Below are positions 2,069 through 34,691 of a stretch of DNA of 35,148 nucleotides, one piece after another. The stretch is from Alphaproteobacteria bacterium. Lineage in GTDB: Bacteria; Pseudomonadota; Alphaproteobacteria; 16-39-46; JABJFC01. Numbering within the stretch: the stretch's first letter is position 1; the number at the start of each line of letters is the position of its first letter. Position numbers and translations under genes: made by a program. Where the stretch lies: contig JABJFC010000058.1 of NCBI GenBank assembly GCA_018662925.1, positions 1 to 35,148 on the forward strand, written 5' to 3'. The notes under the pieces are model-generated. The model was not told the DNA's origin. It did not search any database and saw nothing but the letters and a program-made list of their open reading frames with translations.

Positions 2069-2113
2069 AGTTCACCAGACCTTTCTTTTAGTTAAGTGTC
2101 TCCACAGGCTGTT

Positions 2114-12400: not shown

Positions 12401-14603
12401 TGGAGAAATCTATATTGCAGGAGATGGTCTAGCTCGAGGATATATTAATCAACCTGCCCTTACAGCAGAAAAATTTATTGCCAACCCTTTTGCAACCAAA
12501 GAAAATGCAAAGCAATTACAAAATCTTCGCCTCTATAAAACAGGAGATCTAGGAAAATATAACCCTGATGGCAATATTGTTTTTTGCAACAGAGTAGATC
12601 ATCAAGTGAAAATTCGAGGATATCGAGTTGAACTTAGGGAAATTGAGCATAAGATTTCTAGCTCCCATTTAGTGCAAAATTCTGTTGTGTTAGTGGATAA
12701 AACAGCAAAAAACAATAAGCTGGTCGCCTATATTGAATTAACCGCAGAGGCTTTGAAAAACCTAGAGTTTCCAAGTTCTTCTTCCTCTATTTTATCTGGA
12801 TCAAAGATTGATCAGCTGAAAGATGTTTTTTCGTCAGATTTAAAAAATTCTTTGCCTAGTTATATGATCCCCTCTATCTTTGTCTTTTTAGAAAATTTTC
12901 CACTTACCTCTAATGGCAAGATCAATAGAAAAGCCCTCTCTATCCCAAACACATCCACACCCTCTTCAGAAAGCGCTTATGCCTCTCCTTGCAATGGAAC
13001 AGAAAAAAAACTCTGCCTTATTTGGCAAGAAGTTCTGGGGCTTGAAAAAATTGGAGTTCACGATAATTTCTTCGCCCTTGGAGGTGATTCTATTAGCAGT
13101 ATTCAAATCTCTTCAAAGGCAAAACAAATCGGACTCTCAATCACTGTGAGAGAGCTGTTTCAAAGCCCAACAATTTCCCAACTTGCAAAGGGAGGGAAGC
13201 TAGGTGCCTCTGAACAAGTGAACTTTATAGACAGAGAAGAAATTCCCTTCCCAGTAACCCCCATTCAAAAACGTTTTTTTGAAGAAAAATCAAATATGCT
13301 GCATACGTATACCCAGGACATAGTCTTTTGCAGCAAAAAACCTCTCACTATTTCAAGTATAAAAAAAATCCTAGAAGAACTTCAAAAGAAGCACAGGGTA
13401 TTTTCATTACGTTACACCTGTAGTTCCAAAAAGATTCCACATTGGACCCAATACTATACAAAAAAACAAAACATTCTTTTGCAAGAATTCGATTTATCTA
13501 GTGCCCCCACAGAGACAGTCGAAGAAAAAATTTCAGAAATACGACAAAATGCAAAAGCGCTAATTAATATTATAGATGGCCCGCTGTTTGTTCTATGCCA
13601 TCTTAAAAAAAATGGAAAAAGTGATCTGCTACTTATAGCTCATCACCTTATTATAGATGCTGTATCTTGGAAAATTCTCCTTGAAGATTTTGAGTGTGCT
13701 TATAGGCTAATTTCAGAAAACAACTCCTACAATTTTATGAATAAAACACATTCATTTCAATACTGGCAAAAATCTTTAGAAAGTTATGAAAAAAATATCA
13801 CTATCAAAGAAAAAGATTACTGGAAATCCTTAGAAGAAAAGATGGTTATATGCAAACCAGAAAAAGACTTAAAAACAGGTTATGTGACTGAAAAACTGAC
13901 AACTTCTACAACAATAAAACTACTTCGAGAATCCCACAAAAAATACAACACAAGCATTAATGATCTTTTGCTGACAGCCCTTTCTTGCTCTTTATCCAAG
14001 TGGGGAAAAGCAACTTCTATGGTTGTGGAGTTAGAGGGGCACGGAAGGGAAGAGGTCGAAAAAGGAATTGACCTATCGCACACTATAGGTTGGTTTACCA
14101 GCCTATATCCCTTTGATGTAAAAACAAACCAATTTGATAGCCTAGAAAACAAACTACTCATAATAAAAAAACGGAGGGAGAAAATTCCACTAAATGGAGC
14201 AGGGTATGGTATTTACAGATTAGGCATTTCAACCCCTCAACCTCAATCACAAATTTTATTTAATTATTTGGGACAATGGACAAAGCAAGACCAAAACAGT
14301 CACCGTATATTCCATTTTTCAAAAAGTGATGATATTGCAATGTTATATAATTCACATCAAGTCGCATTTCGCCATAAGATTATCATCAATGCCGTAAGCA
14401 TAGAGAACCAATTTCATGTTCATATAGCTTACAATCCAGATACATATGCAAAACATGACATCAAAAAATTGGAGAGATTGTTTCTAGATAATGTAGAAAA
14501 AATCATCGAGCATTGCTGTAAACATACAGTTCTTAAAAAAACAAACTCTATAAGCAACAAAAATAGAAAAAATGCTATAGCACAAATACTTAAAAAGGGT
14601 TAG
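6480..14603 (+). CDS. NRPS gene 2: formyltransferase-½C-A(Ser)-T-C-A-T-E
   Basis: A bimodular synthetase of 2707 residues. Residues 4 to about 315 form a formyltransferase of the Fmt/ArnA fold with the catalytic set N95, H97 (NFHDAPLP) and D133 (KIDAGDI). About 325-540 is the C-terminal lobe of a condensation domain without HHxxxDG. A2 (568-1080) has YGPTE and Lys1077; its code DVWHISLIDK means Ser. T2 carries Ser1134. C3 starts near 1188 with HHIILDG (His1322-1323). A3 (1644-2150) has code DAWLVFGIAK. T3 carries Ser2204. E3 starts near 2257 with an intact HHLIIDA (2388-2394), EGHGRE, GWFTSLYP, NGAGYG and FNYLGQW. The start is a TTG overlapping gene 1 by 8 bp, with no clear ribosome-binding site, so expression is probably coupled to gene 1. 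Domains F-½C-A-T can start a formylated chain, as LgrA does in linear gramicidin. Confidence 0.93.
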   Translation: MPKKESPLTFCLICETSLGLVCAKKILHSGHKISAVVSQRKTVVKWAKATEIPILSNLPELQQQYKEKSFNYILSIVNNSLLTNDTLKLAERTINFHDAPLPKYAGINSAAWAIFNGEKEHGVTWHFVNSKIDAGDILVQETIPIEKNDTAQTLHLKCYKLAAETFDVLLQKISRNQLHSLKQDLNKRTYYGRHKKPATCGIINFQLSSHELWQQAKSFLYCDYQNTFCSLKVMIGSHFFSCSAIPVSSILETKVAPGRITLVEENSLQVSTSDGDLKLSNFKTLDNRQLNLENLLATNNLSLGKKLRIVTKDDLSELHSFYEEESKNEGFWINELSTAKQISSTNVSNQEKNKETLTEDCWKIDPDISRSLLALLKETEAEDLHFKLFALFIWKLYDSPLTFGFPYYRKDTAPNFKGLFSELLPLNLPKNPPMCLKKGYQDISEALNTLKGSGTFISDLLTRYPNLSPPVSHSMILNIAKEETVSIKKHGLLIANFKKNHITLMCSNKSLHPHFNWKKFHVFLKEIETALVNLDQKQSKEDAPLPTKEAIYPNALWNNTQINHNSPLLLHQYFEKQARKHPDRIAIVFKDKHLSYHYLNQQADALAYSLKEQGVESESFVGVLMDRSVELVISLLAIFKAGSVYMPFESSTPLERIKRAISQLNCKFLLTNSQFPRLTEKTIFLDKVNWSGNDAFSLFHPIEKNLSALAYIIHTSGSTGTPKAAGNTHTGIENRLLWMKKQYTIDQATIILHKTPISFDVSLWELLLPLICGSKLILAPPQAEKDPEKLCALMKKNHVTLCHFVPSLLSIFQRDSLLQKCTSLRHVICSGESLSTKNVEIFHQQSTAKLHNLYGPTEASIDVSHWTTHPPNQSQCSVPIGRPISNTKIYILNKNLEQIPISSIGEIYITGDGLARGYINQPDLTADKFIANPFATQEDICTSQNLRLYKTGDLGKYLENGNIDFCGRADQQIKIRGYRVELEEIEYNLLSSPLVCDAVVIARKESKELVAYISIEKKILKSLNTPLNASDSTLLIDPALNEISQTLREYLREKLPDYMIPHHIVFLENFPLTSSGKINRKELPAPNNTNRSINQNYAPPRNKIEKDLVLIWQEILNIHPIGIYDNFISAGGDSISSIQISSKAKTKNFHFSPRLVLEHQNIAELSQYVTQKETTHTQKATTFRKKNYALTPLQSGLLFRELYNKSISGEYIVQTVIELQGKINLEIIQIAWQEVIQAHDILRMAFVWENMGIPLQYTLDGVLFSCKSEDWSKYSKETIESKLTSFLEKDRKAPFDLSAPPLFRLSLMTLPNETFYLMWSYHHIILDGWSSRLILNDFFHVYCALIKNKKAPLKTYSYKTYLQCHEKQRKDKALDFWTKNLHCIEEPSLLVPPQKNSKELHQKRLRSSFSQNFWREVKRYSQSNNYTINTLIQASIGLVLSQLISKKTLSYGITISGRSVDLENIDHIPGLLINTLPLSIEIKKYHCIKEYLDSLQKQTLSINEHSFVSLAEIQKIALPNGDPLFDTILVFENYPSSSHSETKKGELSVKSIDSHEQNEFPLTFVFFPGKTPCLELSYKSPLFTQKEIERIAELFRETLKNLIQLHPSSLLQKISSCPKQEKETLLTKWNHYVPLVEKNFLLPHELFEQQARSLPHRIALICKKQHITYYELNQRANRLASHLRKQGIGPEVCVAVSLERDIDLVTTILSILKTGGTYLPLDFSLPEKRLNFMIKDSGAHHLITQNFSSKKISTSAGKHIDLQSIDLSNAPECNLKSEINSHHKALAYTIYTSGSTGQPKGVGLTYKNLSSLLCSDKLKILDVTKNTRSIWVSSLLFDASIWELFAALSSGGTLVIPQNSQNLVADELLDSLKKEQISYLPIPASLLSSIPLDFSNQIKTAVVFGDVPNRSALEKWSGKSKIFNGYGPTENTIASTLFLCTSPLSSPLPIGTPISNSNIYVLDEALHPTPMGIIGEIYIAGDGLARGYINQPALTAEKFIANPFATKENAKQLQNLRLYKTGDLGKYNPDGNIVFCNRVDHQVKIRGYRVELREIEHKISSSHLVQNSVVLVDKTAKNNKLVAYIELTAEALKNLEFPSSSSSILSGSKIDQLKDVFSSDLKNSLPSYMIPSIFVFLENFPLTSNGKINRKALSIPNTSTPSSESAYASPCNGTEKKLCLIWQEVLGLEKIGVHDNFFALGGDSISSIQISSKAKQIGLSITVRELFQSPTISQLAKGGKLGASEQVNFIDREEIPFPVTPIQKRFFEEKSNMLHTYTQDIVFCSKKPLTISSIKKILEELQKKHRVFSLRYTCSSKKIPHWTQYYTKKQNILLQEFDLSSAPTETVEEKISEIRQNAKALINIIDGPLFVLCHLKKNGKSDLLLIAHHLIIDAVSWKILLEDFECAYRLISENNSYNFMNKTHSFQYWQKSLESYEKNITIKEKDYWKSLEEKMVICKPEKDLKTGYVTEKLTTSTTIKLLRESHKKYNTSINDLLLTALSCSLSKWGKATSMVVELEGHGREEVEKGIDLSHTIGWFTSLYPFDVKTNQFDSLENKLLIIKKRREKIPLNGAGYGIYRLGISTPQPQSQILFNYLGQWTKQDQNSHRIFHFSKSDDIAMLYNSHQVAFRHKIIINAVSIENQFHVHIAYNPDTYAKHDIKKLERLFLDNVEKIIEHCCKHTVLKKTNSISNKNRKNAIAQILKKG
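6489..7430 (+). other. N-terminal formyltransferase domain fused to the NRPS
   Basis: Folate-dependent formyltransferases use an N-x-H pair and a downstream Asp. All three are present (N95, H97, D133), in the blocks NFHDAPLPKYAG and GVTWHFVNSKIDAGDILVQ. The AP(L)PKYAGINSAAWA form is the NRPS-associated subgroup rather than tRNA formyltransferase. In LgrA such a domain formylates the first aminoacyl-carrier before elongation. Here the likely substrate is seryl-T2, but an upstream N-methylated unit cannot be excluded. Confidence 0.8.
7450..8120 (+). other. Half condensation domain (C-lobe only)
   Basis: The stretch from EGFWINELS through FALFIWKLYDSPLTFGFPYYRK and LFSELLPLNL follows the order of the C-terminal lobe of condensation domains (FWxxxL, ...TxxGxPxxxR, ...NTLPL). 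The N-terminal lobe with HHxxxDG is missing, and the formyltransferase occupies its place. It should not form peptide bonds and probably serves as a structural bridge to A2. Confidence 0.55.
8181..10000 (+). other. Module 2 (A2-T2), serine
   Basis: The code DVWHISLIDK differs at one position from the classical serine code DVWHLSLIDK. FDVSLWELL (D760), CHFVPS and LYGPTEASID give the residues. Core motif A3 reads HTSGSTGTPK with His in place of the usual Tyr. The carrier motif is GGDSI (Ser1134), a form usual before epimerases, but a C domain follows instead. Confidence 0.8.
10041..14500 (+). other. Module 3 (C3-A3-T3-E3), D-configured residue of unknown identity
   Basis: C3 (ALTPLQSGLLF, HHIILDGWS), A3 (FDASIWELF, code DAWLVFGIAK), T3 (ALGGDSI, Ser2204) and an intact E3 follow in order. 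The code starts like Phe/Leu/Val activators (DAW) but position 301 is Phe, which I do not recognise. A hydrophobic side chain is likely. All epimerase motifs are present, so this residue should be passed on in the D form to C4 at the start of gene 3. Confidence 0.75.
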
Positions 14604-20600: not shown

Positions 20601-23600
20601 ACAGAAACAGAACTTACAACCTATTTAGAACAGTTTCTCCCTAATTACATGGTTCCTTCCTCCTTCATTTTTTTGGATTGCTTCCCCCTCACTACTAGTG
20701 GAAAGATTGACTACAAAAAGCTTCCAACTCCAGACAAAGCTGGACATTCTTTAAAAGAAAAATATGTGGCTCCTCGCACTGAAATTGAGCAAGCCATTTG
20801 CCTCATTTGGCAAGAAGTTCTCGAACTGAAGCAAATTGGTGTTCATGATAACTTCTTTAAAATTGGTGGGCACTCTCTCTTAGCAACACAAATCATATCC
20901 CGCATTCGATCTCAGTTTCAGCTAGAGTTGCCCTTGCGGGACATTTTTGAATACCCCACTATCTCAACCTTCTCTACCCTTATTACTCAGTCCCTTAGAA
21001 ACCCAAAGGACCTAAACGTTCCACCAATTTTACCAGCACCACATCAAGCCCTCTTCCCCTTATCCTTTGCCCAGCAACGTCTTTGGTTCTTAGAAGAGCT
21101 TGATCCTAATGTTTCAGCGTACAATATTCCCATGGCACTTGAAATCTCTGGCCCCCTTAACATTCAAGCCCTTTCCAAAGCTCTAAAAGCAGTTATTCAA
21201 CGACACAATAGCCTAAGAACCGTCTTTATAAAAAAAAATGGAGTCCCTTTCCAAAAAATTCTCCCAACTATTGATTCTATTGAAACCGTAGAACTTACTG
21301 ATGCAAACGACATAAAAAATAGGCTCTCTCATATCAAGAAAGATCATGCCCATACAAAATTCAACCTTTCAGAAGGTCCCTTAATCCGAATCACCTGCTT
21401 AAAGGCCTCCTCAGAAAAAACATTCCTTTTTATTACACTGCACCATATTATTAGTGATGGATGGTCTATTGGAGTCTTCAACCAAGAACTCTCTTCTTTC
21501 TACAAAAAATATCTTCAAAAAAAAGACCCAGAGCCATTCTCCCTACCTATCCAATACACAGACTTTACTATCTGGCAACATTCTTGGCTTCAAGGAGATC
21601 CCTTGCAAAGACAATTGTCTTATTGGAAAAGCAAACTAGATTCTTTGCCAGATTCATCAAATTTTCCAACTGACTTCCCTCGGCCAAAGACGCTTTCTTA
21701 TAAGGGGGAAAGGTATAGATATGCCCTTAATAAAGAACTAAGTCTAAAAATTAAAAGTCTTTGCTTAGAGGAAAACATCTCTATCTATATGTTCCTCCTC
21801 ACTGCCTTTAATGTTCTTCTGCATAAATATAGCGGGGATGAAGATATTATTGTAGGAACACCCGTTGCCAACCGAAATCACAAAGACATTGAAGGACTGA
21901 TAGGATTTTTCGTAAATACTCTGGTTTTTCGATCCAATATCTCCCCACATAAAATTTTCTATGACCTGCTTCTTGATTTAAAAGAACAATCTCTTACAGC
22001 TTATCAGTACCAAGATGTTCCCTTTGAACAACTTGTAGACCATCTCAATATTGAGCGTGCCTTAAATAAAAATCCCATATTTCAAATCATGTTCATGATG
22101 CAAAATGCTAATGAATCCTCTCGGTTCCTAGAGCTTGGAGGGACAGAAATTTCCTATATGAGTCATGAGGAAAATATTGCTAAGTTTGACTTAGAAATCA
22201 TCGCTCATGAAGATCCAAAATCACAATGCATTGGCCTCACTATTGAGTACATGACAGATCTCTACAAGAGTGAAACTATTGAAAAATTTGCGGGTCATTA
22301 TAAATCCCTTTTAAAAGAAATCACTTTGAACCTGCAAGCGCCCGTCCACACCTTAAACATACTGCTTCAAAAAGAACAAAGCTTACTGCTCAATACCTGG
22401 AATGATACTAATGAAGAGTATGGTGAACTCCCTTTTGCACATAAACTATTTCAACAGCAAGCACAGAAAAATCCTGATCGTATTGCTCTTGTCTTTGATG
22501 GTAAGCACGTTACATATGAACAACTTAACCAACAAGCCAATAGATTAGCTCACTATCTAAAAGCAGAAGGAGTTGGTCCAGAAACCTTTGTAGCTGTTTT
22601 GATGGATCGAAGCGTTGATCTTATAGTATCCTTTCTAGCTATTCTCAAATCAGGAGGTGCCTATGTCCCTCTTGACCCTAATACACCAGTCACAAGAAAT
22701 TTATGGTTTCTTGAACAGGTAAAGCCTTCTGTGCTGATTTTAGGAGAAAATTACAGGAAAACATACACAGGAAAAATCAAAACGCCTGAAATATTTGCCA
22801 CTCAATTTCATCATAAAGAAAGTTTTGATCCCTCATTTAATGAAAATTTAAATCTTCTCCTTAACCCTCTTCACATAGCATATGTAATTTATACCTCAGG
22901 ATCAACTGGAACCCCCAAGGGGACAGCAGTCCATCACCTTGGCATGCATAATCATATCAAAAGTAAAATCAAAGATTTAAAAATTACAGCCCAAGATACG
23001 ATTGCTCAAACATCAACTCAAATTTTTGATATCTCAATTTGGCAAATGCTTACCTCCTTAACCCTTGGTGCAAAAGAAGTGATTTTTTCACAAAATGAAA
23101 TTCTTGATATTAAAATCTTTTCAAAGGTTTTTTCTCTAAGCAAAATCTCCATTTTAGAGCATGTGCCATCATATACAATTCTCTTCTTAGAAGAGTTAAA
23201 AGACAAAACAAAAAAAAGTCCTTTTCGCTATTTAAAACACTACATCGTAACAGGAGAAGCCTTAACGCCCCTTGTATGCAGCACATTGCTTGATACAGAT
23301 AAAAAACTGTGTATTGTAAATGCCTATGGACCAACAGAATGTTCTGATGACGTAACCCACTACTTTCTCACTTCCCACCCTGGAAAAGAATTTTCTATCC
23401 CCATAGGAAAGCCTATTAACAATACAAAGATCTATATCCTAGATAAGGCTCTAAGCCCTGTTCCCATTGGGATAGTTGGAGAAGTTTATATCGCAGGAAA
23501 TGGCCTTGCTAGAGGATATCTCAATCAACCTGATCTCACAGCAGATAGGTTCATTGCAAACCCTTTTGCCACTCAAGAAAATATCAATAACCCCCAAAAT

Positions 23601-26600
23601 CTTCGCCTCTACAAAACAGGAGACTTGGGAAAATATCTCCCAGATGGAAATATAGACTTCTGTGGCAGAATAGACCATCAGGTCAAAATCAGAGGATACA
23701 GAATTGAGCTGGGTGAAATTGAGCATGCACTTTCTGCTTCTTCCCTAGTACATCAAGCAATTGTTGTGGCTCACAAAGACACGAAAAATCAGGAGCTTCT
23801 CGCATACATTCTATTAACCCCCAAAACCTTAGAAGAACTCTCTCCTCTAGATAATAACAATTCCTCTGCTCTCACTGGCTCCTTAATGGGAAAGATCACA
23901 AAAGACCTTCGCCTGGAATTAGAAGCAACACTTCCTGACTATATGATGCCTGCCCATTTCATTTTCTTGAATGAATTTCCACTAACTTCCAATGGAAAAA
24001 TTGACCGAAAAAAACTTCCTGTTCCTGACAAATCAAAGCGAACTCTAGAACAAAACTATGTAGAGCCACGCAATGAGATAGAACAAAATCTTTGTCTTAT
24101 TTGGCAAGAAGTTCTAGGGCTCAATCGCATTGGAATCCACGACAACTTTTTTGAAATCGGTGGTCATTCTCTTCTAGCTACACAAATTATTTCTCGCCTC
24201 CATTCTCAGTTCCAATTAGAATTACCTCTACGGGATATCTTTGAGCACCCTACCATTTCGGCATTTTCTACACTCATCACCAAAGCCCTTAGAAACCCAA
24301 AGGACTTAAATATTCCGCCAATTTTACCCGCTAGCCCCCAAGATCTCTTTCCTCTGTCATTCTCTCAACAACGCCTTTGGTTTTTAGAGGAACTGACTCC
24401 TGATGCTTCAGTCTATAATATCCCCATAGCACTTGAACTATCGGGACTTATTGACATTCAAGCACTCACAAAAGCCTTCAAGAAGGTCATTCAACGGCAT
24501 GATAGCCTAAGAACCATCTTTATAGAAAAAGATGGAGTGCCCTTCCAAAAAGTTCTTCCTACCATTGACCCTATTGAAACAATAGAGTTGACTGATAAAA
24601 AAGACCTACAGAAGAAAATTTCTCAGACAAAAAAAGACCATTCTCAGACACGTTTTAATCTTTCTGAGGGGCCCTTAATTCGCATTACCATCTTAATGGT
24701 CTCTCCTGAAAAAACATTCCTCTTTATTACTATGCACCACATAATCAGTGATGGCTGGTCTATTGGAATTTTTAATCAAGAAATTTCAACTCTCTATAAA
24801 TCCTATCTGCTAAATCAAGAACCGGAATTGCCTCTATTAGCTATTCAATATACAGACTTTACCCTCTGGCAGCACACTTGGCTCCAGGAAAAAACTCTAC
24901 AAAAGCAACTCACATATTGGCAAGATAAGCTAAAAAATCTACCCGACTCTTTAAATCTTCCAACAGATTTTCCTCGCCCAAAAACCCTTTCTTATAAGGG
25001 AAAAAGATTTAAATACCCCCTCAATAAAGACCTTAGCTTGAAGATAAAATTCCTCTGCTTGGAAGAAAATGTTTCAACCTATATGTTCCTGCTCACTGCC
25101 TTTAATGTGCTTCTTCATAAATATAGTGGTGATGAAGATATTATTGTAGGAACACCTATTGCCAATCGAGCTCAAAAAGAACTCGAGGAGCTCATTGGTT
25201 TTTTTATAAATACCCTAGTATTTCGATCCAACGTGTCACCCCATAGAACTTTTCATGGTTTATTGCAGGACATAAAGGCACAGTCTCTCTCAGCCTACCA
25301 GTATCAAGATGTTCCTTTTGAGCAACTTGTAGATCATTTAAATATTGAGCGATCTCTAAACAAAAATCCTATATTCCAAGTGCGTTTTGTGTATCAAAAA
25401 CAAACTGGAGACAACCTAACATTTGAAGGAACTTCTTCACAACCTATTCACACAGAGCATGAGTCTGCTAAATTTGATTTTTTGCTACACATCTATGAGC
25501 AAACTGATTCCTCCTTTTCTATTTCTGTTGAGTACATGACAGATCTCTATAGAGACGAAACTATTACCCAGTTTGCACAACACTATGAAACTCTCCTAAA
25601 AAGCATTGTCTCAGAACTGCACACACCTATTCATAGGTTAAATATATTGCCTCAAAAAGAGCAAACCTTACTTCTCAACACATGGAATAATACCGCTAAA
25701 AAGCATGGTAATTTTCTATTCGTTCATAAACTATTTGAACAACAAGCACAGAAAAATCCTGATCATATTGCTCTTGTTTTTGAAAACCAGCAGATCACAT
25801 ATAAACAGCTCAATCAGCGGGCAAATAAATTATCCCATTACCTGAAAGAACAGGGAGCAGGGCCAGAAACTTTTATTGCCATCCTAATGGATCGAAGCAT
25901 CGATTTTTTTGTCTCGTTAATTGCCACCTTAAAAGCAGGCAGCGCATATATTCCTCTTGACCCTAACTTACCACCCCAGAGGCTTGCTTATATCTTAAAG
26001 GACAGCAATCCTCACCTGATTCTTTCTAACAAAGAACAGCCTTCTTATATCCAAGAAAATACCTTTGTGAACATTTCCACTTTGGGCCTTAGAACCCAAT
26101 CTCATGAATCTCCCTTGGTTCCACTGCATCCTCACAATCCCATCTATCTTATTTATACATCAGGCACGACTGGAAAACCAAAAGGAGTTATAATTTCCCA
26201 TGAAGCCTTATCCAATTATACTGAGGCAATTCTTAAGAAAATATCAGCTGCCTCCCAGGTAGGTTACTGCAATGCTCCTTCTACCGATATCGGAAACACG
26301 ACTCTCTTCACAAGCCTCACAGGAGGAAAAACACTTCATATATTCTCTGAAGGAGAAGAGTTAGACTCCCAAATTTTCTTAGAAAAAGTGTTTGAAAAAC
26401 GTCTTGATCTTCTAAAACTTACACCCTCCCACCTCCAGATTCTTTCTGAAAAACTTTCCAGTGCGACTTCCCTCATGACAGAGTATTTTAAAAAGCATAT
26501 GACCTGCATTATAGGAGGAGAGGAACTAAAATCCAGCCTCATCCACGCAAAGAAGACAATCAACCATTATGGCCCCACCGAAACTTCTGTAGGTGTCACG

Positions 26601-29600
26601 ACCTATGCCTGTAAAGAAGAAGAAACTGGGCAAATAATACCCATTGGAAATCCCTTACAAAACACAAGGATTTACCTTCTTGATATTTCCCTGAATCCTG
26701 TTCCTATAGGTGTTATCGGAGAAATTTATATTGCAGGAAATGGCCTTGCTCGAGGATATCTTAACCAACCCAATCTCACAGCAAAAAAATTTATTGCTAA
26801 CCCTTTTGCAACTCAGGAAGACATTGGCACTTGCCAGAACCTCCGCCTCTATAAAACAGGAGATTTAGGGAAGTACCTCCCTGATGGAAACATTACTTTC
26901 TGTGGCAGAATGGATCATCAAGTTAAAATTAGAGGACATAGAATTGAGTTAGGGGAGATTGAATCTCTCCTCCAAAGTCATGAAGACCTGAAGGCCTGCA
27001 GTGTAACAGCCCTAGAAAATCGCTCAATTGCAGCATACATAATCCCAGGAGATTTTGAGCCTACAGAAACAGAACTCATATCTTATTTAGAGAGTAAGCT
27101 TCCTGCCTATATGGTGCCTGCCCATTTCATCTTCTTAAGTGAGTTTCCCCTAACTTCTAGCGGAAAAATTGATTACAAACGACTTCCAAACCCAGATAAA
27201 TCAGAGCGCTCTTTAGAGGAAAAATATGTAGCCCCTCGCAATGAAGTTGAACAAGAGCTTTGTCTCATCTGGCAAAAGGTTCTCAAACTGAGGCAAATTA
27301 GCATTCACGATAATTTCTTTAAAATCGGCGGGCATTCTCTCTTAGCAACACAAATAATTTCTCGCGTCCGATCCCAGTTTCAAGTGGAATTACCTCTGCG
27401 AGATATTTTTGAATACCCGACCATATCAACCTTCTCCACGCTCATTAGTCAGTCTCTTAGAAACCCAAAAGACCTAAATGTTCCACCAATTTTGCCAGCA
27501 CCCTCTCAAGAGCTCTTCCCCCTGTCCTTTGCCCAGCAACGCCTTTGGTTTCTAGAAGAGCTGAGCCCTGATGTATCAGCTTATAACATTTCCATGGCAC
27601 TTGAAATCTCTGGCCCTCTTAATATTCAGGCCCTTGCCAAGGCTCTGAAGGTAATTATTCAAAAACACAATAGCTTAAGAACCGTCTTTATAAAAAAAGA
27701 CGGAATCCCCTTCCAAAAGATTCTAGAAGATATTGATCCTATTGAAACCATAGAACTGACTGATACAGATGACATAAAAAACAGACTGTCTGAAGTAAAA
27801 AGAGAACATACCCATATAAAATTCAACCTTTCAGACGGACCATTAATCCGTATTACTATCTTAAAGGCTTCTCCAGAAAAAACTTTTCTCTTTCTTACCC
27901 TACACCATATTATTAGTGATGGATGGTCCATTGGAGTATTCAATCAAGAACTATCTTCTCTCTATAAAAGCTATCTTCAAAAACAAAATTTAGAATTATC
28001 TCCACTACCTATCCAATATACAGACTTTACTATCTGGCAACGTTCTTGGCTCCAAGGGAAATCCCTGCAAAGGCAATTGACTTACTGGCAAAATAAACTA
28101 GATGGTTTGCCAGACTCTTCAAACCTTCCAACCGACTTTCCTCGACCTAAAACACTGTCCTATAAGGGAGGAAAATATGGCTATAAAATTAATAAAGACT
28201 TGAGTCTGAAAATTAAAAAACTTTGTTTGGAGCAAGGCATCTCCACCTATATGTTCCTCCTCACTGCTTTTAATGTACTGCTTCATAAATATAGTGGGGA
28301 GGAAGACATTATTGTGGGAACTCCTATTGCCAATCGAAACCACAAGGATATCGAAGAACTCATTGGATTCTTTGTGAATACTCTAGTGTTTCGATCTAGT
28401 GTGTCACCTCACAAAACCTTCCATGACTTGCTTCTTGATTTGAAAGAACAATCCCTCACAGCCTATCAGTATCAAGATGTTCCCTTTGAGCAACTTGTAG
28501 ACCATCTCAATATTGAGCGTGCCCTAAATAAAAATCCCATATTTCAGGTCATGTTCATGATGCGAAATGCCAACGAATCCTCTCGTTTCTTAGAACTTGA
28601 AGGAACAGACATTTCCTATCTAAATCGTGAAGAAAATATTGCTAAGTTTGACTTAGAAATTACGACCCATGAAGACCAAAAGTCACAATGCATTGGCCTA
28701 TCTGTTGAGTATATGACAGATCTCTATAAGCACAAAACAATCGAGAGGCTAACTCAACACTATGAAACTCTCCTGAAGGACATTGTCTCAAATATACAGG
28801 CTCCTGTTCATACCTTAAATATACTGTCCCAAAAGGAACAAATTTTCCTTCTGCACGCTGGGAATAATACTGCTGAAAAGTATGATGAATATCCTTTTGT
28901 ACATAAAATATTTGAACAACAGGCACAAAAAAATCCTGATCGAATTGCCCTTGTCTTTGATGACCAACACATTACATACGCACAGCTTAATCAACGCTCA
29001 AATCAATTGGCTCATTATCTAAAGGCACAAGGAGTTGGACCTGAAAAATTTGTGGGCATTCTAATGGAACAAAAAATTGATTTGATAGTTTCCTTGCTAG
29101 CCACGATCAAAGCAGGAGGCGCCTATGTCCTCCTTGACCCTAAATTACCGCCTCAAAGGCTTAACTATATATTGAAAGATGCGACTCCCCTTCTGATCCT
29201 TTCTAATAAAGAACGCCCTTCACACCTACAAGAAGGTGAAGTTGTAAACATTTCTACCTTAGACTTCTCAGCTCAACCTAATGAAATTCCCTTGATTCAA
29301 CTACACCCCCACAACCCCATTTATCTTATCTATACATCAGGCACGACTGGAAAACCAAAGGGAGTTATAATCTCCCACAGAGCTCTTTCCAATACAATGT
29401 GTAGCAAGAGCTTTAGAGAGGCAATAAAAAACTCAAAATCCATCTTAAATATTACAAATCTTTCTTTTGATATTTTTAATTTAGAAATCTATCTGCCCCT
29501 TATATATTGCAAAAAATTGCTTCTTCACAATAAGAACAAGGAGGCCCTTGAATCAATAATTACAAAACAAAAAATTGACTTCATTCAAATCACACCCTCC

Positions 29601-32600
29601 CATCTTCAATCTCTTGCGGAAAATATTTCCTCAAAAAGTTTGAAAAAAATATCTATTTTATGTGGGGGAGAAGCCGTCACAAAATCATTACGGAAAAATA
29701 TCCTAAACTCCCTTTCTTCTATAGTCTATGGACCAACAGAAACGACAATTTGGTCAACTAAAACACAGGACAACTCCATCTCTGAGAACAATGCTATAGG
29801 AAAACCTATTAGTAATACGAAGGTCTATATATTAGATAAACATCTGAATCCTGTCCCCATTGGAGTGGTTGGAGAGATCTATATTGCCGGAGTTGGACTA
29901 GCCCGTGGGTATGCAAATCAACCTGATCTTACAGCAGATAAATTCATTGCAAACCCTTTTATAATCGAAGAAGACATCAAAAATTCTGAGAACCTACGCC
30001 TCTATAAAACAGGCGACTTGGGGAAATATCTTCTAGACGGCAGTATGGAGTTCTGTGGTAGAGTAGACGATCAAATAAAAATTAGGGGTCATAGAATAGA
30101 GCTTGGAGAAATCGAGCACGCCATTTCTGCTTCCTCTTTAGTGAGCCGAGCAATTACTCTCTCCCCTCAGGATAACAATAACCAAAAGCTCATTGCCTAT
30201 CTAACCTTAACTCAAGAAGGCCTAAACTCTCTCTCTCTTCCAAGGGGAACAACGCCCTATATTCTTACCGGCCCCTCCATTGGGAGATTAGCAGATACAC
30301 TACGCATGGAATTAAAACAATCTCTTCCCGACTATATGATTCCTAGCCACTTCATTTTCTTGAGGGAATTTCCCCTAACTCCTAATGGAAAAATTGACCG
30401 AAAAAAACTTCCTGTTCCTGATAAATCAATGAGCTCTCTAGCTCAAGAATATGTAGCCCCTCGCAATGAGATAGAACAAACTCTTTGTGCTATCTGGAAA
30501 GAGGTATTAGGACTCAACCAAATTGGCATCCATGATAACTTCTTTAAAATCGGTGGCCATTCGCTTTTAGCTACACAAATAATCTCCCGAATCCAGCCTC
30601 ACTTTCAGGTGGAGTTGCCCCTCCGGGATATCTTTGATAACCCTAACATCTCAAGTCTTTCCTCCCTTATTACCCAATACCTTAAAGACTCAAAGAAATT
30701 TCAAATCCCTTCTATTGTCCCTGCACCACCCCAAGAGCTCTTTCCTCTTTCCTTTGCCCAGCAACGACTTTGGTTTCTAGAAGAATTAAACCCTACTGTT
30801 TCAGTTTATAACATTCCCATGGTACTAGAAATATCGGGAAGTCTTGATGTTCAAGCCCTTACTAAGGCCTTAAAAATAATTATTCAAAGACATGATTCCC
30901 TCAGAACTGTCTTTATAAAAAAAGATGGTATACCCTTCCAGAAAATTCTTCCCACTATTGATCCTATTGAAATAATAGAAATCACTGATACAAATGATCT
31001 GAAAAAGAAAATTTCTCAAACTAAAGAAGATCATTCCCCTACACGATTTAATCTTTCTGAAGGCCCTTTGATTCGCGTTTCCATCTTAAAAGCCTCCCCA
31101 GAAAAAACCTTTCTCTTCATCACCCTCCACCATATTATCAGTGATGGCTGGTCTATTGGAGTTTTCAATCAAGAACTCTCATTTCTCTACAAAACCTATC
31201 TTTTAAAAAACAACCAAAAATTACCCGCCCTTCCTATTCAGTATACAGACTTTACTATCTGGCAAAATTCTTGGCTTCAAGGCTCTCCTCTGCAGAAACA
31301 GCTTTCTTATTGGAAAAACAAACTAGACAACCTACCAGACTCATTGAATCTTTTAACTGATTTCCCTCGACCAAAAATTCTTTCCTATAAAGGAAAAAGA
31401 TATAGATGCATTCTTAGCAAAGAACTGAGCGCAAAAATCAAAACTCTCTGTCTAGAAGAAAGTATCTCCACCTATATGTTTCTATTCACTGCCTTTAATG
31501 TGCTTCTTCATAAGTATAGTGGAGACGAAGATATCATTGTGGGGACGCCCATTGCTAACCGGACTCACAAAGATATTGAAAGCCTGATTGGATTCTTTGT
31601 AAATACATTGGTATTCCGATCTAATGTATCCCCTTACAAAACGTTCCATGAATTATTGCTTGATTTAAAAGAACAATCTCTTGCAGCCTATCAGTATCAA
31701 GATATTCCTTTTGAGAAGCTCGTTGACCACCTCAATGTTGAGCGCTCTCTAGATAAAAATCCTATCTTTCAAGTCATGTTTATGATGCGAAACGATAGAG
31801 ACTTTGCCCAACCCTTAGTTCTTGAAGGAACAAATGTTTCTTATATGCATAATGAAAATAATATTTCTAAATTTGACCTAGAAGTCGTTGCCCATGAAAA
31901 TCCAGAATCACAATGTATTGGTTTGACTTTTGAATACATGACAGACCTGTACAAAGATGAAACAATTGAAAGGCTCTCGCAACACTATGAAACTCTCCTA
32001 AAAAATACTATCTCCAACCTAAAAACACCAGTTCATTCCTTAAGTGTCTTGCCTCAGAAAGAACAAGCCTTAATTCTCAAAACCTGGAACAACACTATTG
32101 AAAATTATGCTGGACCAGCCTTCATCTACGAGATTTTTGAACAACAAACCCTAAAGACCCCAGATCGCATTGCTCTTGTCTTTGACAATCAGCATATCAG
32201 TTACACTCTATTAAACGAGAAGGCAAATCAACTGGCTCATTATTTAAAAGAGCAAGGAGTTGGACCAGAAATCTTTGTAGCTGTCCTAATGGATCGAAGC
32301 ATTGACCTTGTAATCTCCTTGTTGGCAATCCTCAAGGCAGGAGGTGCCTATGTTCCCCTTGACCCTAATCTGCCACCCCAAAGACTTAACTATATCTTAA
32401 AGGACGCATCTCCTCTCCTGATTCTTTCAAATGAGAAATGCCCCCCTCACATACAAGAAAGTATATTTATTTCTACTCCTTCCCTAAATCTGGAAAAGTA
32501 CTCCAAAAAAAATCTACCCACTCTGCTGAATCCACAAAACCCCATCTATCTTATCTATACATCAGGCACGACTGGAAAGCCCAAAGGTGTAGTAGGAGTG

Positions 32601-34691
32601 CACTCAGCAACAACCCAACGTTTTTTATGGCTTCTACATCGCTATCCATTCGACCCTGAAGACACATGCTGCTTTAAAAAAGAATTTAGTTTTGTTAGCG
32701 CTGTTTGGGAACTGTTTGGGCCACTCTCAAGCGGCATAAAAACTATTATCCTGAACAAAGAAGATGGAAAGGATATATATAACTTTAACAAACACATTGC
32801 TAAAAATGTGATTACAAGAATAGAAGGAGCCCCCTCTTTTATTCAGGAGCTATTTAATCTCGTTAACGCACCCGTTTTAAAAAAGCTAAACTATATTAGT
32901 ACTAGTGGAGAACCCCTGAGCAACAACCTACTCGAACTTATTAAGAAAAAATGCCCTAGCACAAAACTGCTGAACCTTTATGGGCCAACAGAGTATGCGT
33001 CAGATGTTACCTATTATGAAGCTGATTCTACAAAAGAAAGAAACATGGCATTAGCCCCCATAGGAAAACCTATTAGCAACACAGGAATCTACATTCTGAG
33101 TAAAAATTTACACCCTTCCCCTATAGGAGTAGTTGGAGAAATTCATGTTTCAGGAGAAGGGCTCGCTCGAGGATATATAAATCACACTGACCTTACAGCA
33201 GATAGATTTATTGCCAATCCCTTTGCAACAAAAGAAAGTATACAAAAATCTCAGAATCTCCGACTTTATAAAACAGGCGATCTGGGTAGGTATCTACCAG
33301 ATGGGAATATTGAGTTCTGCGGCAGGATAGACCATCAAGTTAAAATCAGAGGATACAGAATAGAACCTAGTGAAATTGAACAGGCCCTTTCTACTTCTCC
33401 TCTTGTTTATCGTTCCATCACTTTAGCTCATAAGGATGATACTACTCAGGCACTCATTTCTTATATTGAATTAACTCCAAAAACCCTAGAATCACTGGCA
33501 CTTCCAAGAACATCTTCTCCTATTCTCACAGGCTCCCTCATTGGAAAAATCACAAAAGACCTTCGTATGGAGTTGGGAAAATCTCTTCCTGATTATATGA
33601 TTCCCTCCCGTTTTATCTTCTTAAGAGAACTCCCCTTAACCCCCAATGGGAAAATCAATAGGAAAAAACTACCAACTCCTGACAAATCAATACGAACTTT
33701 AGAAGAAGATTACGTCGCCCCTCGCAATGAAATTGAAAAGGAACTATGCTTCATCTGGCAAGAAGTTCTAGAGGTCAGTAAAATTGGAATTCATGATAGC
33801 TTTTTCAGTATTGGAGGGGACTCCATTAAAACGGTTAGAGTAATCTCAAAATGTATAGAGAGAGGCTTTAATTTTCAGGTAAGAGAAATGTTTGAGTATG
33901 TTACGATTGCCAAAATGGCTGAATCCCTATCTATGAATCATGACAATCATTGTTTCCCCATAGAAGTCCCAATTTCAAAGAAAATAAATAAAAACAATAT
34001 AGATCCTAAAATATTTATTATACACCCTGCAGGCGGGCTTGCTTATGAGTATTTGAGGTTACGTCCATACCTTGAATCCTATGATGCGATAGGCATTAAC
34101 AACCCCTACTTCCTCTCTCCTGAATGTTTTTCATCTGTTGCTGAAACAGCAAAAAAATATGCACAATACATAGAAAACACAGCCTCTACTAATCCTCTTA
34201 TTATTATCGGATATTCCTATGGAGGGCTTATTGCCTACGAGTTGTCCAAGTATCTTCCTGTAGAACAGGTTAAAGCAATAATATTTATTGATACAAAATT
34301 ATTTAATACATCTCACATGGCCCCTATAGAACATACCATGCATAAAGACTCAGTGATTAATGATTACCTCAACAAAAATATGCAACAAGCTAGTACACTA
34401 GCAAGCCAATATTCTCTTCAAAAAAATTCTCTGCCTATATGGCTATTAAGAGCAGAAGAAGAGAAGAAAAAGAGGCAGGCAGATGCAGGATTTTCTCAAA
34501 TTTTTTCTAAGGGAAACTATCTTCTTATACCAGGGAATCACAACAATCTTTTTTCTGACCATATTGAAAGCACCGGACAAATTTTGAGAAAAATAATCAA
34601 TGAGATTCTAGAAAAGAAATTGTCGTCTTACTCAATCAAAGGAAATCCACAATCCACGCCTGGCACCATACAAAAAGCTAGCAATGAGTGA
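14613..34691 (+). CDS. NRPS gene 3: six C-A-T modules plus thioesterase
   Basis: A giant synthetase of 6692 residues with the order (C-A-T)x6-TE. It starts at an ATG 9 bp after gene 2; AAAAAGGG lies about 13 bases upstream, so translation is probably coupled. All six C domains keep HHxxxDG (His pairs at about 142, 1221, 2277, 3375, 4431, 5506). C4 (SPLQEGLLF) resembles C3 and suits a D-residue donor. C5-C9 (FPLSFAQQRLWF) are of the LCL type. Carrier serines lie at about 1032, 2088, 3186, 4242, 5317 and 6404; the first five are GGHSL and the last GGDSI. Codes are DIWHIGAISK, DLTKVGHVGK, DIWEITADDK, DITKIGHVGK, DILQLGVIWK and VSWESSLSDK. The terminal thioesterase has GYSYGG (Ser6535), Asp6560 and His6643 and should release or cyclise the peptide. 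The 3' end overlaps an antisense oxygenase fragment by 64 bp. Confidence 0.95.
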   Translation: MSDIETLSILSPLQEGLLFRELYTKGAGGEYIVQTVIHLHGKIDSEAVQIAWEKITQAHDILRTGFVWENVDHPIQYTLNKSDLFFSTEDWSKLSEKSIGSNLSSFLEQDRSTPFNLSSPPLFRVKFLKLPKNSYYIVWTCHHILLDGWSSRLILNDFFSAYCATLEKKQPNLAVDSYTSYLQWIEKQDKDCARDFWVKNLQNIEEPSLLKLSQATEKKTSQRNFISPLPETLWENVQKYAQLNNYTINTLVQATIGLVLSQLMNKRNISYGVTISGRSIDLKNVQNIPGLLINTLPLSIGIDRTRSVRTYLDSLQLQTLSINEHSSISLAEVQKNSFPGEKALFDTILVFENYPSSNHSQFENYGFSIKSIDIYEKNEFPLTFVFFPGQSPYLELNYQTSLFLINEIERISELFQETLKNLISVPPSLLLQEVSSFSDKEKEKILSTWNNFKIVPQKEDLLIHQIFEQQAEKKPDRVALLHEGQHVTYAQLNQRAYQLAHYLKEKGVGPETFVAVGLERGIPLITSILAILKTGGAYVPLDLSLPKERLKFILNDSNACCLITEKKYSEYLLDFSGTCIDFLSIPFSSLPNKNLPDEVHLDSSIYLTYTSGTTGTPKGIINSQRGLLNRFLWSLSYYNINQTEIFLQNASIGFDISYWELVLPLLVGSKLVIPTDKKAKDPLHLYQLLIKEKVTLSHFVPSLLSQLLEFSKKNTQHRFLRKLICGGEVVPKEDLNQFLTLFPQAHFHHAYGPTEAAISVTYWDIKKGPYLEPKLPIGRPINKTKIYILNEALNPVPIGIIGDIYIAGDGLARGYINQPDLTADKYIANPFATQEDVNNFQNLRLYKTGDLGKYLSDGNIDFCGRIDSQVKIRGYRIELGEIEHALSASSLVHQAIILAHKEAKHQELIAYLLLTPQTLEKFSFPENASFSVLTSPSIGKITKVLRLELEKSLPDYMIPAHFIFLNEFPINSNGKIDRKRLPTPDKSRRTLEQNYVEPRNEIEQDLCLIWQEILGLNKIGIHDNFFEIGGHSLLATQIISRLRSQFQLELSLRDIFEYPTISVFATLITQSLRNPKDLNVPPILPATPQDLFPLSFAQQRLWFLEELTPNSSVYNIPMVFELSGPLNILALHKAFQKIIQRHSSLRTFFIKKDGVPFQKILADLDPFELVDLNDTENLEDHLSSIKHKHAHIRFDLSKGPLLQLTLLKAGPEKNFLFITMHHIISDGWSVGIFNQELSILYRAYISDQDIELPLLAIQYTDFTLWQHAWLQGKTLQKQLTYWQEKLKNLPDSLNLPADFPRPKTLSYKGKRYQHLLNKDLSLKVKSLCLEENVSTYMFLLTTFNVLLHKYSGDEDIIVGSPISNRTHKDIEGLIGFFVNTIVFRSKILSHSIFYNLLLDLKEQSLTAYRYQDIPFEQLVDHLNIERSLNKNPIFQMRFVYQKQSGETLDLEGISSQPIHTDYEASKFDLLLHIYEKKNSDFSISVEYMSDLYKDETIKRFAHNYEALLESIVSDLHTPIHRLNILPQKEQSLLFNTWNNTSKKHDESLFVHNLFEEQVQKNPDRIALVFKNQHVTYEQLNQWANKLSHYLKEQGAAPETFVAILMDRSIDFVVSLIAVLKTGGAYLPLDPSLPPQRLSYILNDSAPSLILSNKEQPSYIQENTFVNISTLNLTTEPNNNPLHQLHHHNPIYLIYTSGTTGKPKGVIVSHGALSNYAKAILKKISAASQIGYCSNPSTDLGNTTLFASLIGGKTLHIFSEGEELDSQIFLEKVLEKRLNLIKLTPSHLQILSEKLSSATSHAAQYFKNNMLCVVGGEALSPSLINARDTINHYGPTETSVGVTTYACKTEELGGGVPIGSPLQNIKIYLLDSASNPVPIGAIGEIYIAGDGLARGYLNQASLTAEKFIANPFATQEDINTCQNLRLYKTGDLGKYLPDGNITFCGRTDHQVKIRGHRIELDEISSLLQNHEDLQTCTVKILEDGSIAAYIIPGSFEPTETELTTYLEQFLPNYMVPSSFIFLDCFPLTTSGKIDYKKLPTPDKAGHSLKEKYVAPRTEIEQAICLIWQEVLELKQIGVHDNFFKIGGHSLLATQIISRIRSQFQLELPLRDIFEYPTISTFSTLITQSLRNPKDLNVPPILPAPHQALFPLSFAQQRLWFLEELDPNVSAYNIPMALEISGPLNIQALSKALKAVIQRHNSLRTVFIKKNGVPFQKILPTIDSIETVELTDANDIKNRLSHIKKDHAHTKFNLSEGPLIRITCLKASSEKTFLFITLHHIISDGWSIGVFNQELSSFYKKYLQKKDPEPFSLPIQYTDFTIWQHSWLQGDPLQRQLSYWKSKLDSLPDSSNFPTDFPRPKTLSYKGERYRYALNKELSLKIKSLCLEENISIYMFLLTAFNVLLHKYSGDEDIIVGTPVANRNHKDIEGLIGFFVNTLVFRSNISPHKIFYDLLLDLKEQSLTAYQYQDVPFEQLVDHLNIERALNKNPIFQIMFMMQNANESSRFLELGGTEISYMSHEENIAKFDLEIIAHEDPKSQCIGLTIEYMTDLYKSETIEKFAGHYKSLLKEITLNLQAPVHTLNILLQKEQSLLLNTWNDTNEEYGELPFAHKLFQQQAQKNPDRIALVFDGKHVTYEQLNQQANRLAHYLKAEGVGPETFVAVLMDRSVDLIVSFLAILKSGGAYVPLDPNTPVTRNLWFLEQVKPSVLILGENYRKTYTGKIKTPEIFATQFHHKESFDPSFNENLNLLLNPLHIAYVIYTSGSTGTPKGTAVHHLGMHNHIKSKIKDLKITAQDTIAQTSTQIFDISIWQMLTSLTLGAKEVIFSQNEILDIKIFSKVFSLSKISILEHVPSYTILFLEELKDKTKKSPFRYLKHYIVTGEALTPLVCSTLLDTDKKLCIVNAYGPTECSDDVTHYFLTSHPGKEFSIPIGKPINNTKIYILDKALSPVPIGIVGEVYIAGNGLARGYLNQPDLTADRFIANPFATQENINNPQNLRLYKTGDLGKYLPDGNIDFCGRIDHQVKIRGYRIELGEIEHALSASSLVHQAIVVAHKDTKNQELLAYILLTPKTLEELSPLDNNNSSALTGSLMGKITKDLRLELEATLPDYMMPAHFIFLNEFPLTSNGKIDRKKLPVPDKSKRTLEQNYVEPRNEIEQNLCLIWQEVLGLNRIGIHDNFFEIGGHSLLATQIISRLHSQFQLELPLRDIFEHPTISAFSTLITKALRNPKDLNIPPILPASPQDLFPLSFSQQRLWFLEELTPDASVYNIPIALELSGLIDIQALTKAFKKVIQRHDSLRTIFIEKDGVPFQKVLPTIDPIETIELTDKKDLQKKISQTKKDHSQTRFNLSEGPLIRITILMVSPEKTFLFITMHHIISDGWSIGIFNQEISTLYKSYLLNQEPELPLLAIQYTDFTLWQHTWLQEKTLQKQLTYWQDKLKNLPDSLNLPTDFPRPKTLSYKGKRFKYPLNKDLSLKIKFLCLEENVSTYMFLLTAFNVLLHKYSGDEDIIVGTPIANRAQKELEELIGFFINTLVFRSNVSPHRTFHGLLQDIKAQSLSAYQYQDVPFEQLVDHLNIERSLNKNPIFQVRFVYQKQTGDNLTFEGTSSQPIHTEHESAKFDFLLHIYEQTDSSFSISVEYMTDLYRDETITQFAQHYETLLKSIVSELHTPIHRLNILPQKEQTLLLNTWNNTAKKHGNFLFVHKLFEQQAQKNPDHIALVFENQQITYKQLNQRANKLSHYLKEQGAGPETFIAILMDRSIDFFVSLIATLKAGSAYIPLDPNLPPQRLAYILKDSNPHLILSNKEQPSYIQENTFVNISTLGLRTQSHESPLVPLHPHNPIYLIYTSGTTGKPKGVIISHEALSNYTEAILKKISAASQVGYCNAPSTDIGNTTLFTSLTGGKTLHIFSEGEELDSQIFLEKVFEKRLDLLKLTPSHLQILSEKLSSATSLMTEYFKKHMTCIIGGEELKSSLIHAKKTINHYGPTETSVGVTTYACKEEETGQIIPIGNPLQNTRIYLLDISLNPVPIGVIGEIYIAGNGLARGYLNQPNLTAKKFIANPFATQEDIGTCQNLRLYKTGDLGKYLPDGNITFCGRMDHQVKIRGHRIELGEIESLLQSHEDLKACSVTALENRSIAAYIIPGDFEPTETELISYLESKLPAYMVPAHFIFLSEFPLTSSGKIDYKRLPNPDKSERSLEEKYVAPRNEVEQELCLIWQKVLKLRQISIHDNFFKIGGHSLLATQIISRVRSQFQVELPLRDIFEYPTISTFSTLISQSLRNPKDLNVPPILPAPSQELFPLSFAQQRLWFLEELSPDVSAYNISMALEISGPLNIQALAKALKVIIQKHNSLRTVFIKKDGIPFQKILEDIDPIETIELTDTDDIKNRLSEVKREHTHIKFNLSDGPLIRITILKASPEKTFLFLTLHHIISDGWSIGVFNQELSSLYKSYLQKQNLELSPLPIQYTDFTIWQRSWLQGKSLQRQLTYWQNKLDGLPDSSNLPTDFPRPKTLSYKGGKYGYKINKDLSLKIKKLCLEQGISTYMFLLTAFNVLLHKYSGEEDIIVGTPIANRNHKDIEELIGFFVNTLVFRSSVSPHKTFHDLLLDLKEQSLTAYQYQDVPFEQLVDHLNIERALNKNPIFQVMFMMRNANESSRFLELEGTDISYLNREENIAKFDLEITTHEDQKSQCIGLSVEYMTDLYKHKTIERLTQHYETLLKDIVSNIQAPVHTLNILSQKEQIFLLHAGNNTAEKYDEYPFVHKIFEQQAQKNPDRIALVFDDQHITYAQLNQRSNQLAHYLKAQGVGPEKFVGILMEQKIDLIVSLLATIKAGGAYVLLDPKLPPQRLNYILKDATPLLILSNKERPSHLQEGEVVNISTLDFSAQPNEIPLIQLHPHNPIYLIYTSGTTGKPKGVIISHRALSNTMCSKSFREAIKNSKSILNITNLSFDIFNLEIYLPLIYCKKLLLHNKNKEALESIITKQKIDFIQITPSHLQSLAENISSKSLKKISILCGGEAVTKSLRKNILNSLSSIVYGPTETTIWSTKTQDNSISENNAIGKPISNTKVYILDKHLNPVPIGVVGEIYIAGVGLARGYANQPDLTADKFIANPFIIEEDIKNSENLRLYKTGDLGKYLLDGSMEFCGRVDDQIKIRGHRIELGEIEHAISASSLVSRAITLSPQDNNNQKLIAYLTLTQEGLNSLSLPRGTTPYILTGPSIGRLADTLRMELKQSLPDYMIPSHFIFLREFPLTPNGKIDRKKLPVPDKSMSSLAQEYVAPRNEIEQTLCAIWKEVLGLNQIGIHDNFFKIGGHSLLATQIISRIQPHFQVELPLRDIFDNPNISSLSSLITQYLKDSKKFQIPSIVPAPPQELFPLSFAQQRLWFLEELNPTVSVYNIPMVLEISGSLDVQALTKALKIIIQRHDSLRTVFIKKDGIPFQKILPTIDPIEIIEITDTNDLKKKISQTKEDHSPTRFNLSEGPLIRVSILKASPEKTFLFITLHHIISDGWSIGVFNQELSFLYKTYLLKNNQKLPALPIQYTDFTIWQNSWLQGSPLQKQLSYWKNKLDNLPDSLNLLTDFPRPKILSYKGKRYRCILSKELSAKIKTLCLEESISTYMFLFTAFNVLLHKYSGDEDIIVGTPIANRTHKDIESLIGFFVNTLVFRSNVSPYKTFHELLLDLKEQSLAAYQYQDIPFEKLVDHLNVERSLDKNPIFQVMFMMRNDRDFAQPLVLEGTNVSYMHNENNISKFDLEVVAHENPESQCIGLTFEYMTDLYKDETIERLSQHYETLLKNTISNLKTPVHSLSVLPQKEQALILKTWNNTIENYAGPAFIYEIFEQQTLKTPDRIALVFDNQHISYTLLNEKANQLAHYLKEQGVGPEIFVAVLMDRSIDLVISLLAILKAGGAYVPLDPNLPPQRLNYILKDASPLLILSNEKCPPHIQESIFISTPSLNLEKYSKKNLPTLLNPQNPIYLIYTSGTTGKPKGVVGVHSATTQRFLWLLHRYPFDPEDTCCFKKEFSFVSAVWELFGPLSSGIKTIILNKEDGKDIYNFNKHIAKNVITRIEGAPSFIQELFNLVNAPVLKKLNYISTSGEPLSNNLLELIKKKCPSTKLLNLYGPTEYASDVTYYEADSTKERNMALAPIGKPISNTGIYILSKNLHPSPIGVVGEIHVSGEGLARGYINHTDLTADRFIANPFATKESIQKSQNLRLYKTGDLGRYLPDGNIEFCGRIDHQVKIRGYRIEPSEIEQALSTSPLVYRSITLAHKDDTTQALISYIELTPKTLESLALPRTSSPILTGSLIGKITKDLRMELGKSLPDYMIPSRFIFLRELPLTPNGKINRKKLPTPDKSIRTLEEDYVAPRNEIEKELCFIWQEVLEVSKIGIHDSFFSIGGDSIKTVRVISKCIERGFNFQVREMFEYVTIAKMAESLSMNHDNHCFPIEVPISKKINKNNIDPKIFIIHPAGGLAYEYLRLRPYLESYDAIGINNPYFLSPECFSSVAETAKKYAQYIENTASTNPLIIIGYSYGGLIAYELSKYLPVEQVKAIIFIDTKLFNTSHMAPIEHTMHKDSVINDYLNKNMQQASTLASQYSLQKNSLPIWLLRAEEEKKKRQADAGFSQIFSKGNYLLIPGNHNNLFSDHIESTGQILRKIINEILEKKLSSYSIKGNPQSTPGTIQKASNE
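14625..17830 (+). other. Module 4 (C4-A4-T4), substrate unassigned
   Basis: C4 receives the chain from E3 and has the PLQEGLLF opening and HHILLDGWS. The A4 code DIWHIGAISK is drawn from FDISYWELV (D655), LSHFVPS, KLICGGE and HAYGPTEAAIS. It has the DxWH start of Ser/Glu-type pockets, but Gly301, Ala322 and Ser331 match no code I know. From about 16938 on, the DNA is in register with module 6. Confidence 0.7.
16938..22680 (+). repeat. Two-module tandem duplication, copy 1
   Basis: From the A5/A6 region of module 4 through the N-terminal part of A6, the DNA aligns to 23400-29142 at a constant offset of 6462 bp (2154 codons). I checked the register at eight points: 16938, 17041, 17581, 17883, 19741, 20881, 22081 and 22440. 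All gave the same offset with no net indel. The matched stretch covers T4-C5-A5-T5-C6. Confidence 0.85.
17880..21010 (+). other. Module 5 (C5-A5-T5), aspartate
   Basis: The code DLTKVGHVGK comes from STDLGNTTLF (D1738), IKLTPSHL, CVVGGE and NHYGPTETSVG. It differs from the Asp code DLTKVGHIGK by one conservative change. The A8-A10 region is short, with no insertion. This is the first Asp of the predicted Asp-X-Asp-Gly. Confidence 0.85.
21050..24290 (+). other. Module 6 (C6-A6-T6), 2,4-diaminobutyrate-like
   Basis: The code DIWEITADDK comes from FDISIWQML (D2806), LEHVPS, YIVTGE and NAYGPTECSDD. Glu278 and the paired acidic Asp330-Asp331 suit a basic side chain. The code is close to the Dab code DIWELTADDK as I remember it. 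No epimerase follows, so an L residue is expected. A6 shares its outer parts with A4 and A8 but not its substrate pocket. Confidence 0.7.
23400..29142 (+). repeat. Two-module tandem duplication, copy 2
   Basis: Second copy of the 16938-22680 segment, covering the end of A6, T6, C7, A7, T7, C8 and the start of A8. A5 and A7 are near copies throughout, including the Asp pocket. C5 and C7 share the FQ(M/V)RFVYQKQ tail, and C6 and C8 share the FMM(Q/R)NANESSRFLEL tail. Confidence 0.85.
24340..27470 (+). other. Module 7 (C7-A7-T7), aspartate-like
   Basis: The code DITKIGHVGK comes from STDIGNTTLF (D3892), LKLTPSHL, CIIGGE and NHYGPTETSVG. The three differences from the Asp code DLTKVGHIGK are all conservative. 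His322 favours Asp over Asn, whose code has Glu there. It is the duplicate of module 5. Confidence 0.8.
27510..30690 (+). other. Module 8 (C8-A8-T8), glycine
   Basis: The code DILQLGVIWK comes from FDIFNLEIYL (D4953), IQITPSHL, ILCGGE and IVYGPTETTIW. It differs from the glycine code DILQLGLIWK only at position 322. It closes the Asp-X-Asp-Gly series encoded by modules 5-8. Confidence 0.88.
30730..33940 (+). other. Module 9 (C9-A9-T9), beta-amino-acid-like substrate
   Basis: A4 of this domain reads FSFVSAVWELFGPL, so position 235 is Val6028, not the Asp that holds the alpha-amino group in ordinary NRPS domains. The code VSWESSLSDK shares V235, W239, S301, L322, D331 and K517 with the beta-alanine code VDWVISLADK. 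The upstream RFLWLLHRYPFDPEDTCCFKK block also resembles beta-alanine activators. Glu278 could bind an extra amine. Confidence 0.65.
34000..34620 (+). other. Type I thioesterase domain (chain release)
   Basis: An alpha/beta-hydrolase domain of about 205 residues begins at KIFIIHPAGG. It has the nucleophile motif GYSYGG (Ser6535), the acid FIDTK (Asp6560) and GNHNNLF (His6643), so the triad is complete. About 24 tail residues follow. Ring closure or hydrolysis cannot be told from sequence. Confidence 0.9.

Follow-up and report, generated by a model that had tools for sequence, protein, structure and literature searches.

A probable β-alanine-type pocket core with an unusual glutamate in the last adenylation domain of an alphaproteobacterial NRPS

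Introduction

In adenylation (A) domains for α-amino acids, the α-amine of the substrate is held by Asp235, and in VinN-type domains the same Asp (VinN D230) holds the β-amine (PMC11253843). A9, the final A domain of a 6692-aa NRPS from an alphaproteobacterium, has Val at this position, which raises the question of what residue it places at the end of the peptide. We examined A9 within the 35,148-nucleotide stretch that carries it (the window), which makes up the whole of contig C58 in a metagenome-assembled genome (MAG) of 1.83 Mb.

Results

The NRPS genes of the window lie on the forward strand. The first (2096-6487, +) encodes A1-MT-T-E, the second (6480-14603, +) encodes formyltransferase-A2-T-C-A3-T-E, and the third (ORF 14613-34691, +) encodes six C-A-T modules (A4-A9) followed by a thioesterase. 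The terminal module comprises a condensation domain with an HHIISDG motif (30732-32075, +), A9 with all of its motifs A1-A10 intact (32103-33680, +; residues about 5831-6356), and the last carrier (T) domain with a GGDSI motif (33741-33923, +). It is followed by a C-terminal type I thioesterase (34008-34691, +; PF00975) with GYSYGG and Ser6535, a domain order that agrees with the initial annotation in making the A9 residue the last before the thioesterase. The donor residue ahead of A9 is supplied by A8 (28875-30419, +; code DILQLGVIWK), which, from general knowledge of codes, we take to be Gly-like. A6 (22434-24026, +; code DIWEITADDK) is of the Dab/Dap type, close to PvdL and SulM-A3, and served as the in-protein comparator for Glu278. 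The cluster is flanked by insertion sequences, and at its left end transposase genes of the Mutator and IS240/IS6 types were seen (3-767 and 868-1389, -). A stretch resembling, by eye, a degenerate condensation domain lies between the formyltransferase and A2 (gene 6480-14603, protein residues about 330-560); Pfam makes no call on it.

A9 is an NRPS adenylation domain by its motifs, its fold and its TIGR01733 score (401 bits, against a cut-off of 317). Code positions were assigned using a PheA fragment, confirmed identical to 1amu, as a ruler. The alignment gave the code VSWESSLSDK, with V6028 at position 235, S6029 at 236, W6032 at 239, E6071 at 278, S6096 at 299, S6098 at 301, L6122 at 322, S6130 at 330, D6131 at 331 and K6347, the catalytic Lys of motif A10 (33651-33653, +), at 517. 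In a second, independent alignment, to 9n1u, the Val of A9 faces the Asp of FDVSVW and its Glu faces the Glu of ILEVVP. An AlphaFold2 model (pLDDT 90) placed V6028 (model residue 198) at the start of a helix (198-209) and E6071 (model residue 241) within a strand (239-242), as expected for positions 235 and 278. Both alignments thus bear out the code and the absence of Asp at 235 given in the initial annotation, and A9 does not have the hallmark of an α-amino acid A domain. Residues V6028 and S6029 (32694-32699, +) leave no acid at either the Asp235 site of α-amino acid domains or the Asp236 site of β-alanine-type domains. Acidic residues are found instead at E6071 (32823-32825, +) and at D6131, which follows S6130 (33000-33005, +).

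A link to β-alanine activators had been drawn from six shared code positions. The count is right, as A9 and VDWVISLADK are identical at six of the ten positions, but the match argues little for β-alanine because serine codes reach the same number (DVWHISLIDK also shares six positions with VDWVISLADK). The link is backed far more by phylogeny and by the mosaic structure of the domain than by these six letters.

Searches with the pocket core led to a clade with the motif FVDSVWE, found mostly in cyanobacteria and also in Chloroflexota, Acidobacteriota, Paenibacillus, Bacteroidota and Proteobacteria. From published predictions and general knowledge, we take this clade (codes VDWVISLADK, VDWIISLANK and VDAxxSIADK) to consist of β-alanine activators. 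Codes of this type, for example VDATVSIADK, have been assigned to β-Ala, the assignment being itself a prediction (PMC3777966), while VDWVISLADK and its like were not found in open-literature text. A9 nested within the FVDSVWE clade (support 100/96) and stayed with it when set against Ser-type domains (100/100). After removal of the code columns it still lay beside two Granulosicoccaceae domains, L028 and L029 (83/95). The nearest kin, L028, is likewise in a terminal C-A module, with a hydrolase domain after it. The branch of A9 is long (2.4-4.3 changes per column), and the exact sister of A9 is uncertain. It shares with the clade Val235, Trp239, Ser301, Leu322, Asp331 and a CC before motif A4. 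The A9 pocket very probably belongs to the FVDSVWE clade.

A genome scan with the A9 pocket core, using patterns that excluded positions 235, 236 and 278, yielded 76 relatives. Val or Gly at 235 together with Asp236 occurs in 75 of them, and the combination of Ser236 and Glu278 occurs in A9 alone. The missing Asp235, taken by itself, is therefore ordinary within the clade, to which A9 conforms in having Val at 235. It departs from the clade by the change of Asp236 to Ser and of a neutral residue (V/I/L/T) to Glu278. The loss of Asp236, absent from the initial annotation, is a larger departure than the missing Asp235, and because Asp236 is replaced by Ser6029 we class A9 as a variant of the FVDSVWE clade and not as an ordinary β-alanine domain. 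Glu278 and Asp331 had both been taken as acidic residues beyond what plain β-alanine explains. This holds for Glu278, a residue missing from all 76 relatives; Asp331 is nothing unusual in the clade, position 331 being Asp in 22 relatives and Asn in 53.

The likeness to the clade is confined to the pocket core. Near motif A4, the mean sliding identity of A9 is 0.42-0.46 to the clade versus 0.12-0.33 to the paralogues, whereas for its flanks identity to the closest paralogues in sister modules rises as high as 0.75-0.88. The foreign segment (32583-33002, +; residues about 5991-6130, with approximate borders) runs from motif A3 to just past motif A5. At motif A5, A9 reads YGPTE where the clade has mostly YGSSE or YGSTE, which fits an exchange border near this motif. 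With a core from a foreign clade and flanks from sister modules, A9 has the makeup of a natural Acore subdomain exchange as read from its sequence, and such exchanges have been described as the main route of NRPS diversification (PMC8097286).

Asp236 is also missing from two other members of the FVDSVWE clade. L128 (code VAWFTSFSN) has no pocket acid at all, and pAMDE1-96-A2 (A2 of gene 96 on the Alteromonas plasmid pAMDE1; code IRWVFSLSDK, published as 'unknown') has Arg at 236. Both resemble A9 in the lost Asp236 and in Ser330, and differ from it in having no Glu278. A shared origin of the three domains was considered and rejected, as their grouping vanishes once the code columns are removed; the three losses look independent. 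L128 and pAMDE1-96-A2 indicate that loss of the acid can accompany a changed specificity.

We compared the pocket with those of known amine-binding domains. SulM A3, solved with 2,3-diaminopropionate (PDB 9n1u), and the Dab-type A domain of PvdL (PDB 9up2) have Trp239, Glu278 and Asp331 in the same columns as A9. Both keep Asp235, which A9 does not, and the rest of their pocket core differs. A9 thus has two of the three Dap/Dab residues (Glu278 and Asp331, without Asp235), and in the tree it does not group with A6, the Dap/Dab-type domain of the same protein. VinN-type domains (VinN, IdnL1, CmiS6 and HitB) activate β-amino acids, and VinN S299 corresponds to Ser at PheA position 301, as in A9. 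However, these domains have an equivalent of Asp235 and a shortened β13-β14 loop (PMC11253843), and A9, with Val235, has no Asp in the place where they hold the β-amine.

The genome was also examined for maturation and monomer supply. It encodes two PPTases and two MbtH-like proteins, which together with the intact A9 motifs suggest that the assembly line is probably active. The MAG (96.7% complete) yielded neither panD (PF02261) nor a decarboxylase of family PF00282, so an own route to β-alanine is not evident, and uptake or another route is possible. A search for PF00202 in the MAG identified an ornithine-aminotransferase-like gene and another with sugar/glycosylation-like neighbors; the former is split over two reading frames and lies next to an arginase gene (L139, G000:C75 near 26574-27712). 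On each of two further small contigs of the MAG, C65 (L155) and C16 (L156), an MbtH-like gene is accompanied by genes for a 4-HPPD-family dioxygenase, an FMN α-hydroxyacid oxidase, a class I/II aminotransferase, a TauD-family dioxygenase and an ABC exporter. By annotation these would form the set expected for 4-hydroxyphenylglycine, present in two versions in the 1.8-Mb genome. A formyltransferase-like start was noted in three NRPS genes: that at 6480-14603 of the window, one at the end of C65 (L155, 8897-9679) and one at the end of a contig of G002, a genome of the same order (L142, 9437-11473, G002:C62). The latter two are cut by the contig ends, so the assembly of the window's genome lacks at least one more NRPS gene. 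In G002, where an equivalent of A9 was sought, the NRPS with the formyltransferase start breaks off at the contig end.

Discussion

Among candidate substrates of A9 we put β-alanine, or a small α-substituted β-alanine, first, with a probability of roughly 0.45; that the substrate carries no α-amine is, as a separate matter, probable. In the clade with Val235 and Asp236, the latter would serve as the amine anchor. In A9, alignment suggests that the ω-amine is probably held by Glu278, helped by Asp331 and Ser301, the amine-holding acid having crossed from the A4 helix to the strand opposite. The activated residue would then be loaded onto the last carrier and joined to the presumably Gly-like residue of module 8, after which the thioesterase would free the chain, and the C-terminal residue of the peptide is probably β-alanine or a close relative. 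Acids of this kind have a precedent for moving, since in ornithine domains the amine-binding Glu may stem from either the third or the fourth code position without a change of substrate (PMC10522769). For an ω-amine held by Glu278/Asp331, the most economical reading would put β-alanine first, ahead of GABA or a small substituted β-amino acid; the pocket could take a diamino acid but does not demand one.

The long branch of A9 points to a diverged pocket, and its substrate may have changed. Glu278 in place of Asp236 might define an undescribed pocket type that chooses another C-terminal ω-amino acid, such as GABA, isoserine or a small diamino acid, although we regard this as rather unlikely. 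Relocation of the acid from 236 to 278 could leave a pocket one carbon longer, suited to GABA, hydroxylated GABA or another 4-amino acid. GABA is Dab without the α-amine, Val235 takes away the α-amine anchor, and Trp239, Glu278 and Asp331 are common to A9 and Dab-type PvdL. However, the same three residues occur in the SulM Dap domain, whose substrate carries the amine on Cβ, so they do not fix the chain length, and the glutamate decarboxylase family (PF00282) is among those not found in the MAG. A 4-amino acid is an unlikely substrate.

It is quite unlikely that the pocket contacts no amine at all and accepts a carboxylic acid such as an α-hydroxy acid, or an α-amino acid without use of Asp235, as in McyG with Val at 235. 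Both McyG and α-hydroxy-acid domains do have small aliphatic residues at position 235 (PMC11253843), and within the clade L128 has no pocket acid, but A9 retains acids at 278 and 331, an arrangement that would make little sense with an uncharged substrate.

The initial annotation had suggested a β-amino acid bearing two amines, for example a diamino acid linked through its distal amine. The presence of Glu278 and Asp331 in Dap/Dab domains, and of such a domain (A6) in the same protein, speaks for this proposal. Nevertheless, Dap/Dab domains retain the Asp235 that A9 has lost, and A9 gained one acid and lost another, with no net second anchor; no dedicated diamino-acid genes were recognized among the genes examined. 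Glu278 may be read as a stand-in for the lost Asp236, which would keep one anchor, and we do not prefer the second amine, which we consider highly doubtful. Decay of the pocket, leaving the domain inactive or promiscuous, would fit the long branch and the flanking insertion sequences but is very unlikely given the ten intact core motifs, the intact reading frame and the PPTase and MbtH-like genes in the genome.

Substrate predictors read codes position by position. With its amine-binding acid apparently shifted between two walls of the pocket inside a well-defined clade, A9 offers a clean case in nature for asking which of the two, code or clade, predicts the substrate. A pocket core that has been exchanged naturally between diverged A domains would also be useful for NRPS engineering.
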